Part shown: positions 60,447 through 64,000 of the stretch, piece after piece
Layout of the letters: each line of letters starts with the position of its first letter
Numbering within the stretch: the first letter of the stretch is position 1
NCBI RefSeq assembly: GCF_001306135.1
Contig: NZ_LGKP01000010.1
Coordinates: 1-64,000, forward strand
Source: Herpetosiphon geysericola
GTDB lineage: Bacteria > Chloroflexota > Chloroflexia > Chloroflexales > Herpetosiphonaceae
Reading direction: 5' to 3'
Length of the DNA: 64,000 bases
Program-made: the position numbers and the translations under genes
Notes under the pieces: model-generated
What the model was told of the DNA's origin: nothing
Databases searched by the model: none
What the model saw: only the letters and a program-made list of their open reading frames with translations

Positions 60447-63400
60447 TTAAGCGGCTTCGGCTTCGCTGGTTTCACTGTGGCCGTGCTTATCGCCAAAGCC
60501 AAAGCGTTTTTTGAGGCTTTCAACCAAGCTATAGACAACTGGCACAACCAGCAAGGTCAAGAAGGTCGAGGTGAACAAGCCACCAATCACTGCAATCCCA
60601 AGGTCTGCGCCAATAAAGCCACCTTCTTTGAGGCCCAAGGCCAATGGCAGCAAGGCAACCATGGTCGCGATTGCGGTCATCAAGATTGGCCGCAAGCGCA
60701 CACGAGCTGCTTGAACCAACGATTCGTAGACTGGCTTGCCTTCTTCACGATATTGTTCAACCAACTCAATCAACACGATTGCATTGGTCACCACAATCCC
60801 AATCAAGAGCAAGACCCCAATCATGGTGGTGATGCCCAGTGGCTTGCCAGTGAGGAACAACGAGGTCAAGACCCCGATAATCGCCAATGGCAACGAGAAG
60901 AGAATGATCAACGGGTTCATCAATGAGCCAAACGAGAGCACCATCACCAAATACACCAAGATAACGGCCACGCCCAAGGCGAGGAACATATCGTTGAAGG
61001 TGTCGGTTTGTGATTGAGCTTGGGCACCAGCTTGGATGATCACGCCTTCGGGCAAGCCAATGTTATCGCGAATTTCAGCCTCGACCGCAGCTTGGGTCGA
61101 GAAGGTATCATCGCTGGTAAATTGACCTGAAATCGAGGTGGCGCGGTCGCCGTTGATCCGGACGATGCTGCTTGCACCAGGCACTTCGCTAATGGTTGCA
61201 ACTTGCGAAAGTGGCACGGTGTTGATTGTGCCAACTTCGAGCGCGCGCAATTTTTCAGCATCCAAGGCCGCAGGATCAACTTGTACATAAATATCAAGCG
61301 GTTTGTTGGTGCCATCCAATTGCACAGTCCCTGCGTTTTCGCCAGTAAGCATTGCCCGAATTTGCAAAGCGATTTGGGCTGTGCTGGTGCCGCTGTTGAT
61401 TGCCTTGGCAGGATCAACTGCAACTTCAAGTTCTGGCTGAACTTCGGCCAAGCTGCTCTTGACGTTGGCAATATCGAAGCGATCGCTGGCTAAGTTGCCA
61501 CCAATTGTCGCCATAATTTTGTCATTGGCTTCGCGCAGTTTGTTAATATCCGAGCTAACCAAGGTGATGTCGAGGCCAGCATTGCCAGGGCCGCCGCCTT
61601 GCGAAACAACTTCGGCAGTTACCGATTCAAGCCCAGCAACGCCTTTGATTTGGGTTTCTAGTTCTTTGGCGAAGGCAGCTGGGTCGGTTACTTTGTCGTT
61701 GTCAATCGTCAAGCTGAAACGGGCGCTATCAGGAGCGCTGGCACCACCAGATTGATCGCGATTGCGGTTTGCACCACTAGCGCTCCCAATCACGGTTTGA
61801 ATATCGCGCACTTTACCTTGTTCACGTTGCACCAACAACAATTTTTCAATTTCATCGGCCTTAGCAACGGTAGTGTTCAAGTCGGTGCCCGATGGCGTAT
61901 TGATTTGGATTGAAATCAACTTTTCGCTGCTATCAGGCAAGAAGGTGAATTTCAAGAAATTGACGAAACCAAAGCTACCCAGCAACAAGGCAAATGCAAT
62001 TACCAACGTCCAAGCGCGGTTGCGCAAAGCCCACAACAAGGCTGGAGTGTAAGCGCGTTGCATCCAAGTGTTTTCTGGCTCTTCTTTGGTTTGGCGAATA
62101 AACAGATAAGCCAAGAGTGGCACAATCGTAATCGCTACAATCAACGAAGCCAACAAGGCGTAGGTTACGGTCAAAGCGAAGGGCAAGAAGAACTTCGAGA
62201 CGATCCCGCCGACCAAGCCCAATGGCAAGAACACACAGACGGTGGTCAAGGTCGATGAGGTAATGGCGCCAGCAACTTCCTTGGTGCCTTCGATCACCGC
62301 TTCGCGGCGATTCGCACCTTTATTCAAGTAGCGATAGATGTTTTCCAACACCACAATCGAGTCGTCGACCACCCGTCCGACCGCCACAGTCAGACCGCCC
62401 AAGGTCATCACGTTGAGCGAGAAGCCTTGCAAACGCATCAGAATCAAGGCCACCATAATTGAAAGTGGAATTGAAACTGCGGTTACCAAGGTCGTGCGCA
62501 ACGAACGCAAGAACAAGAAGATCACCACAATTGCCACAACTGCGCCAATTGCGCCTTCGGTCAACACAGCGCTGACCGCTTGGTTAATTGGGGTGGCTTG
62601 TTCGCTGACGATTTGAATCGTCAAACTACCATCGTTGAACTTGGCGAATTCAGCTTCAACAGCTTCGACAATTTCAACCGTGTTGCCAGTGGTATCTTTT
62701 GAAATTTCCAAGCCCAAGCTGGCTTGACCGTTGGTGCGGGTTACGGTGCTGCCGCCAACTGCGCCAACTTCAACCGTCGCCACATCTTTCAAGCGAATCA
62801 GCAATGCTTCAGGCACGCCAGTGCTGCCAGCAGCATCGGGATTGTTGAGCTTTTGCGCCAAGGCTGCTTGGCTTTCTGCTGAAAGCAAGGCAGTGATTTC
62901 AGGCGTAAAGGCTGATAAGAATTGAGCTGGAATTTGCTCAATTAACTCTGGCGTAATTTGATCAGGGCTGGTAATGCCAAAGGCCGCAAATTCTGCTGGC
63001 AAGGCACTTGCGCCATTCCCTGGCGCAGGTGTAGGCGCAGGAGCAGCAGCCACAGCTTCAGCTAAAGCAGTTTGGCTGGCTTCAGGCAAAGCCAAGGCCA
63101 AGTTGACTGGGAATTGAGCCAAACCAGCAACTGGCAATTGGCTAATCACGGCAGGCGTAATTTGATCGGGGCTGGTAATGCCAAAGGCCGCAAATTCTGC
63201 TGGCACTTCAGCTTCTGGCAAGCGTTCAGCCAACGCAGCTTGGCTATCATCGCTCAAGGCCAAGGCCAATGGCAAGGTGATTTGGCTCAATCCAGCAGCA
63301 GGAAATTGGTCAATTACTGCTGGCGTAATTTGATCGGGGCTAGTAATACCAAAGCCTTGCAACGCCGCCGGAATCAAACTGGTTGTAACTGGTTGGTTTG

Positions 63401-64000
63401 GGGCTTGGGTTGGTTTTGGTGTTGCCGCAGCAGTTGGTTGAGCAGCTGCGCCACCAAAACCACCAGTTGCACCACCAAAACCACCGCTGGCTCCGACACT
63501 TAAATCAACGCCCTTGATGCCAACCACGACATTTTCAATTTCGTTGGTTGAGCTATATTTGTGGGTGATCCGCAAAGGCAACGAACGGCCTTCGTCGGTA
63601 ATTGTCCCAACTGGAAAGACCAAGTTATTGGCTTGCAAGAATTGGACAACTTGGGCTTGGGTTAAGTTGTTGGCCGCCATTTTCTCAGGGTTAAGCGTGA
63701 CCAAAACTTTTTCTTGCTCGCCGCCGGTTACCGCCACGTTGTTTACGCCAGGAATGGCCGACAAGGCTGGAACCAGCTCGCCATCGACTTTGGCTTGTAC
63801 GTCGCTTAAGTTTGCGCCGCTGACACTGGCCACGACAATTGGCAACGAATTGAAGTTAAACGTACCAATCGTTGGTTTTTGAGCGTTCTCTGGTAAGCTC
63901 AACGAGCTGATTTTCTCTTGAACTTCAACTTTGGCATCTTTGGGGTCAACATCAACATCAAAGGTCAAAATGGTAAAAGCAAAGCTTTCTGACGATGTTG
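60447..64000 (-). CDS. RND efflux pump permease with triplicated porter-domain insertion (partial)
   Basis: The gene continues past the window edge; 1184 codons are present and the N-terminal helix and start are missing. HAE1/AcrB-type landmarks are clear: VGRVVDDSIVVLENIYR (the membrane Asp pair), LKFTFLPDS after TM7, and C-terminal AIATMVALLPLALG. Between ENVVVGIKGV and LIRLKDVATVEVG a large insert is found (62790-63500): a Gly/Pro/Thr-rich stretch followed by three ~55-70-residue repeats with FGITSPDQITP and SQAALAE cores. Normal pumps pass directly between these two points. The family exports drugs or lipids by proton antiport; no membrane-fusion or outer-membrane partner is visible here. 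A terminator follows. Confidence 0.9.
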   Translation of the reverse strand, partial: TSSESFAFTILTFDVDVDPKDAKVEVQEKISSLSLPENAQKPTIGTFNFNSLPIVVASVSGANLSDVQAKVDGELVPALSAIPGVNNVAVTGGEQEKVLVTLNPEKMAANNLTQAQVVQFLQANNLVFPVGTITDEGRSLPLRITHKYSSTNEIENVVVGIKGVDLSVGASGGFGGATGGFGGAAAQPTAAATPKPTQAPNQPVTTSLIPAALQGFGITSPDQITPAVIDQFPAAGLSQITLPLALALSDDSQAALAERLPEAEVPAEFAAFGITSPDQITPAVISQLPVAGLAQFPVNLALALPEASQTALAEAVAAAPAPTPAPGNGASALPAEFAAFGITSPDQITPELIEQIPAQFLSAFTPEITALLSAESQAALAQKLNNPDAAGSTGVPEALLIRLKDVATVEVGAVGGSTVTRTNGQASLGLEISKDTTGNTVEIVEAVEAEFAKFNDGSLTIQIVSEQATPINQAVSAVLTEGAIGAVVAIVVIFLFLRSLRTTLVTAVSIPLSIMVALILMRLQGFSLNVMTLGGLTVAVGRVVDDSIVVLENIYRYLNKGANRREAVIEGTKEVAGAITSSTLTTVCVFLPLGLVGGIVSKFFLPFALTVTYALLASLIVAITIVPLLAYLFIRQTKEEPENTWMQRAYTPALLWALRNRAWTLVIAFALLLGSFGFVNFLKFTFLPDSSEKLISIQINTPSGTDLNTTVAKADEIEKLLLVQREQGKVRDIQTVIGSASGANRNRDQSGGASAPDSARFSLTIDNDKVTDPAAFAKELETQIKGVAGLESVTAEVVSQGGGPGNAGLDITLVSSDINKLREANDKIMATIGGNLASDRFDIANVKSSLAEVQPELEVAVDPAKAINSGTSTAQIALQIRAMLTGENAGTVQLDGTNKPLDIYVQVDPAALDAEKLRALEVGTINTVPLSQVATISEVPGASSIVRINGDRATSISGQFTSDDTFSTQAAVEAEIRDNIGLPEGVIIQAGAQAQSQTDTFNDMFLALGVAVILVYLVMVLSFGSLMNPLIILFSLPLAIIGVLTSLFLTGKPLGITTMIGVLLLIGIVVTNAIVLIELVEQYREEGKPVYESLVQAARVRLRPILMTAIATMVALLPLALGLKEGGFIGADLGIAVIGGLFTSTFLTLLVVPVVYSLVESLKKRFGFGDKHGHSETSEAEAA
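62790..63500 (-). repeat. triplicated repeat inside the RND gene
   Basis: Three DNA-level copies of the stretch encoding FGITSPDQITP lie at about 62939-63001, 63144-63206 and 63309-63356, in the same frame and with 205- and 165-bp spacing. A Gly-rich and Pro/Thr-rich segment (63410-63500) precedes them in the protein. The third bases differ between copies, so the triplication is not recent. Confidence 0.85.

Follow-up and report, generated by a model that had tools for sequence, protein, structure and literature searches.

A three-repeat insert mapped by alignment to the β1 docking-hairpin tip of an AcrB-type RND permease of Herpetosiphon

SwrC/YerP-type proteins are RND pumps of Gram-positive bacteria, cells without an outer membrane. 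The working of an RND pump in such cells is poorly described, and the exit and docking hairpins of AcrB have been read through TolC and AcrA. Reviews depict a short, vertical, outward-pointing hairpin on each of the DN and DC subdomains (PMC4403515). The AcrB β1 hairpin cross-links to TolC G147, and a docking model consistent with cross-linking puts its residue D256 near the interface with TolC (PMC2292822). In the proton relay, the substitution K940A abolishes proton transport and efflux and leaves AcrB inactive in E. coli (PMC4359379).

The window analyzed here comprises bases 1-64000 of contig 14 (64,000 nucleotides) of a Herpetosiphon genome related to, among others, Herpetosiphon aurantiacus and H. 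giganteus. At its end, on the minus strand, lie residues 84-1266 of an AcrB-type RND permease (60447..64000; ACR_tran E 3.3e-213). The gene runs on to C14:64247, so residues 1-83 fall beyond the window, and the whole ORF (C14:60447-64247, equivalent to L012:4448-8248, minus strand) is one open frame of 1266 aa. Its full-length match to PF00873 (ACR_tran) reaches 710.8 bits against a curated cut-off of 28 and consists of two stretches, split at profile positions 246/252 with about 235 extra residues between them; among NCBIfam multidrug efflux RND permease subfamilies the best match is RND_permease_2, at 592 bits under a cut-off of 1250. The proton-relay aspartates D628/D629 (62361..62366, minus strand; AcrB D407/D408) are kept, as is the counterpart of R971, and comparison with AcrB places T1154 (60786..60788, minus strand) at the K940 position. 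The AcrB relay set is thus incomplete, and because of this substitution the pump is filed as a divergent relative rather than a canonical AcrB. The long intersubunit hairpin segment (43 residues) is present; in L063-L067, from two small-genome Chloroflexota families (f10, f28), about 22 residues of this AcrB DN hairpin are missing. Upstream of the pump and divergent from it, past the window end, lies a MarR-family regulator (C14:64389-64907, plus strand; L012:8390-8908), and a small divergent gene is similarly placed at Herpetosiphon loci and at L019.

A preliminary description of this stretch, made from the sequence alone, had noticed that some 240 residues interrupt the pump at 62790-63500. 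The interruption is real, amounting to about 235 residues within the open frame, and its exact limits are 62805..63509 (minus strand; residues 247-481), where the profile match breaks off at position 246 and resumes at 252. The porter domain, to which the insert had been assigned, proved to be the wrong location and is ruled out by alignment to AcrB. The incoming strand EIENVVVGIKG (residues 236-246; 63510..63542, minus strand) aligns to AcrB 245-253 and the outgoing strand LIRLKDVATVEVG (residues 483-495; 62763..62801, minus strand) to AcrB VLLRDVAKI, and the insert takes the place of the E. coli AcrB tip NQDG (N254-G257), including D256. By this alignment the insert maps to the tip of the β1 hairpin of DN, the funnel or docking domain (AcrB ~252-259), at the pump exit.

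From its start the insert comprises a Gly/Ala/Pro/Thr-rich tether of 43 residues (residues 247-289; 63381..63509), predicted to be disordered, and three repeats, all on the minus strand: repeat 1 (residues 292-346; 63210..63374), repeat 2 with its linker (residues 347-407; 63027..63209) and repeat 3 (residues 416-475; 62823..63002). A search with a repeat HMM, as proposed in the preliminary description, returned precisely these three units, each about 55-65 residues long and with E < 1e-27 (93.4, 90.3 and 104.9 bits, respectively), although the model was trained on sequences of the insert family itself. The pattern read earlier as three copies of FGITSPDQITP, a leucine-rich middle and SQAALAE holds, its last element in the form (S)QxALAe, with a divergent third copy (FTPEITALLSAESQAALA). 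The insert is hydrophobic and anionic in composition; in the Herpetosiphon repeats Trp and Tyr are absent, and only 2 residues are basic versus 19 acidic.

An AlphaFold2 prediction made with six family members shows short helices, roughly five to each unit and the last of them longer, at pLDDT ~75-85, and a tether with pLDDT < 50 over model residues 1-52. A 535-residue model of the porter half gives the repeats pLDDT 75-87, the remainder being poor and the placement of the insert not readable (pTM 0.29); both predictions were made from shallow alignments of 6 and 7 rows. A short-helix solenoid on a flexible, disordered tether is a fair description of the insert as predicted, in keeping with the small helical repeats first suggested. 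Their likening to HEAT/ARM/PPR repeats gained no support: no structure match identifies such repeats, and Pfam gave none of these in the insert, the single match being irrelevant (E 0.52). No known domain was found in the insert in Pfam or NCBIfam, LysM (PF01476) included, and no PDB fold match was convincing (Foldseek E 2.3 and VIA Z 3.6 at best). FliG, MgtE, mesothelin and a PUF chain were rejected as structure matches, all with E > 2 and VIA Z <= 3.6. The short-helix solenoid of mesothelin bears a weak structural likeness to the repeats (VIA Z 3.6), and HeliScrew4 (PDB 9zem), with its SPEKIAALTPEQ-type repeat, a weak sequence likeness to the insert profile (E 0.0036); neither likeness is significant enough to establish homology.

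The surroundings of the pump differ from those of a tripartite system. No ORF for a membrane fusion protein was found at the pump locus, the genome yielded no match to OEP/TolC (PF02321), and its sole HlyD_D23 match adjoins MacB-type ABC genes; neither the linked fusion protein nor the outer membrane factor that characterize AcrAB-TolC was therefore detected. This supports the earlier remark that the organism lacks a classical outer membrane, its phylum being described as monoderm and one member of the Herpetosiphonaceae being reported without LPS synthesis and outer-membrane proteins (PMC7511795).

The explanation favored here, which we would place just short of an even chance, is a monoderm RND pump with no adaptor, in which the docking hairpin, being free, bears an outward crown facing the wall and holding or spacing the mouth of the pump. 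An HAE-1-like exporter would appear to run in a monoderm cell without a membrane-fusion protein or an outer-membrane duct. The β1 hairpin, which in AcrB points outward and touches TolC, would here be opened at its tip by the tether and the three-repeat solenoid; should the pump form trimers as AcrB does, three such modules would crown the outer side of the funnel mouth. The crown would most likely hold or space the mouth within the thick cell wall and keep the exit open, serving there as adaptor and duct do in Gram-negatives. Several observations underlie this reading: the site, its conservation and the selection on it, a genome with no detectable duct family and the lack of an adaptor gene beside the pump. 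Another Chloroflexota pump, L051, has a LysM domain within its tip insert (E 8.6e-8, above cut-off), which in general terms speaks for a role facing the envelope; the tip insert of L050 has a sub-threshold LysM match. Since the Herpetosiphon repeats are acidic and devoid of Trp and Tyr, a role as spacer or in protein contact is likelier than sugar binding, and judging from this composition direct binding of sugar or anionic polymers by the repeats seems unlikely.

The main rival supposes that a β1 tip released from docking TolC or an adaptor is merely a permissive surface loop, gathering repeats and low-complexity sequence of little function. We consider such tolerated expansion rather unlikely, and the evolution of the insert speaks on both sides of it. 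The insert is kept at the same place in eight of the nine Herpetosiphonaceae genomes searched, as the preliminary description would have it, the remaining genome being 75% complete; the relatives' inserts are 66-94% identical to that of the window. Across Herpetosiphon species pairs dN/dS is 0.09-0.27 in the repeats versus 0.04-0.09 in the pump core. The repeats are under purifying selection, looser than on the rest of the pump, and change accumulates 2-3 times faster in the insert than in the core, a difference that agrees with tolerance and counts against a crown. Tolerance sits less well with the strength of that selection, with the GIT/ITP/LALAL/AL motifs, which are invariant in three Herpetosiphonaceae genera, and with a solenoid predicted to fold. 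An assembly artefact or chance repeat is ruled out because eight genomes share the insert and synonymous change dominates. Synonymous divergence to H. giganteus is higher in the insert (0.37) than in the core (0.19) of the same gene. A mobile or widespread domain was likewise rejected: the repeat has a single match in the window's genome, and no clear relatives of the insert were found outside Herpetosiphonaceae in 301 Chloroflexota, where two matches were weak (E 0.003 and 0.007). A genome-wide scan covering named genomes yielded only 6 loci.

Tip length was also surveyed in Chloroflexota, Actinomycetota, Bacillota and E. coli, over 71 RND pumps or 66 once near-identical Herpetosiphon rows were dropped, and the outcome is similarly double-edged. 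At least 20 extra residues occur at the β1 tip in 23 of the 66 pumps, and gains of at least 20 residues in at least three pumps are seen at three places alone, namely the β1 tip (23/65), the inter-half linker and the C-terminal tail. The pseudo-symmetric β2 tip (AcrB D795) varies from -5 to +3 in pumps that align there. The β1 tip is accordingly the only exoplasmic insertion hotspot in these alignments, and the absence of comparable growth at an equally exposed β2 tip counts against tolerance. On the other side, the tip inserts of other monoderm pumps are mostly Gly/Ala/Ser/Pro-rich and of low complexity, varying widely in sequence and length, a pattern better suited to tolerance than to a common function. 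Mostly diderm plasmid pumps gave single-piece matches with no visible extra length across the tip. In two Actinomycetota pumps (L132:3371-6847, plus strand; L133:191-3760, minus strand) the tip inserts are Lys/Gln/Met-rich, 130-164 residues long and possibly coiled coil. A literature search on RND pumps with LysM or docking-domain insertions returned nothing relevant.

Adaptor linkage was compared with tip length in the same set. Where a membrane-fusion gene shares the locus (14 pumps), the tip departs from AcrB by -4 to +5 residues in 13 cases and by +33 in one, versus -5 to +264 in the 52 pumps without an adaptor at the locus (Mann-Whitney p 0.0013, not phylogeny-corrected, with most of the 14 in one clade). 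Short tips where adaptor genes are nearby speak for the crown and are equally compatible with tolerated expansion; the association is phylogenetically confounded, and this weighs against the crown as well. Three Chloroflexota pumps of one family (f58), L192:4900-10563, L193:3755-8851 and L191:4520-9433 (all plus strand), combine RND and HlyD-like parts in a single frame of 1637-1887 aa, and these fusions have AcrB-length tips.

Repeat similarity beyond the family is a further point against mere tolerance. In the sister Chloroflexota pump L052 (L052:3309-7541, minus strand) most of DN (profile 182-268) gives way to about 460 residues in which LTPE-type repeats abound. With the Herpetosiphon repeat model these outscore every one of 2000 shuffles; for L050 the homology is only marginal, since 5 and 12 shuffles in 1000 match or beat its score. 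A tree computed with the tips cut out unites Herpetosiphonaceae, L050 and L052 in one group (SH-aLRT 99, by a quick method), from which a repeat-bearing tip may be ancestral there.

In the preliminary description the repeats would dock a partner, here taken as a separate protein of the envelope that stands in for the membrane fusion protein; we judge this improbable. Solenoid repeats often bind proteins, and the insert occupies the AcrB docking site in a pump with no adjoining adaptor gene; however, the MarR regulator aside, no conserved partner gene was identified adjoining the pump, and the repeat was found just once in the window's genome. Least probable is a substrate-handling lid or collar that, at the funnel mouth, captures or gates a particular product of large size or lipidic nature. 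The position at the exit and the hydrophobic, anionic character would suit it, but no substrate-naming biosynthetic neighborhood was seen at the loci inspected.

At the K940 position 27 of the 28 long-tip pumps (among the 71), that of the window included, carry Thr, Ser or Ala, with D407/D408 kept; where an adaptor gene is nearby (14 pumps) the residue is Lys in 12, Arg in one and Asn in one. In these alignments, loss of K940 sets the adaptor-less pumps apart as a distinct group, and they may be viewed as natural counterparts of AcrB K940A. It is tempting to propose, as a possibility that falls well short of probable, that adaptor-less monoderm RND pumps form a distinct, uncharacterized class in which the β1 hairpin mounts varied envelope-facing modules (short-helix repeats, LysM, Lys/Gln-rich segments, low-complexity tethers), K940 is lost, and exit and energy coupling are unlike those of AcrB.

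Compared with AcrB/MexB-type HAE-1 permeases (PF00873), the pump is alike along its whole length outside the insert, which is flanked by the DN hairpin strands, and shares with them the relay residues D407/D408 and R971; it differs in the 235-residue β1 tip insert, in Thr for K940 and in having no adaptor or TolC alongside. SwrC/YerP-type pumps, as generally described, are likewise RND permeases in cells without an outer membrane, and two Bacillaceae pumps (L109 and L110) have tips of +13 and -2 residues without a repeat domain. Also comparable is the LysM-bearing L051, with an extra domain at the identical hairpin tip and, again, no adaptor gene nearby, although this domain is LysM instead of a short-helix repeat and the pump sits elsewhere in the pump tree. 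A docking hairpin replaced in this way, by repeats in Herpetosiphon and by LysM in one relative, makes the question of how RND pumps work without an outer membrane directly testable through a single surface module.
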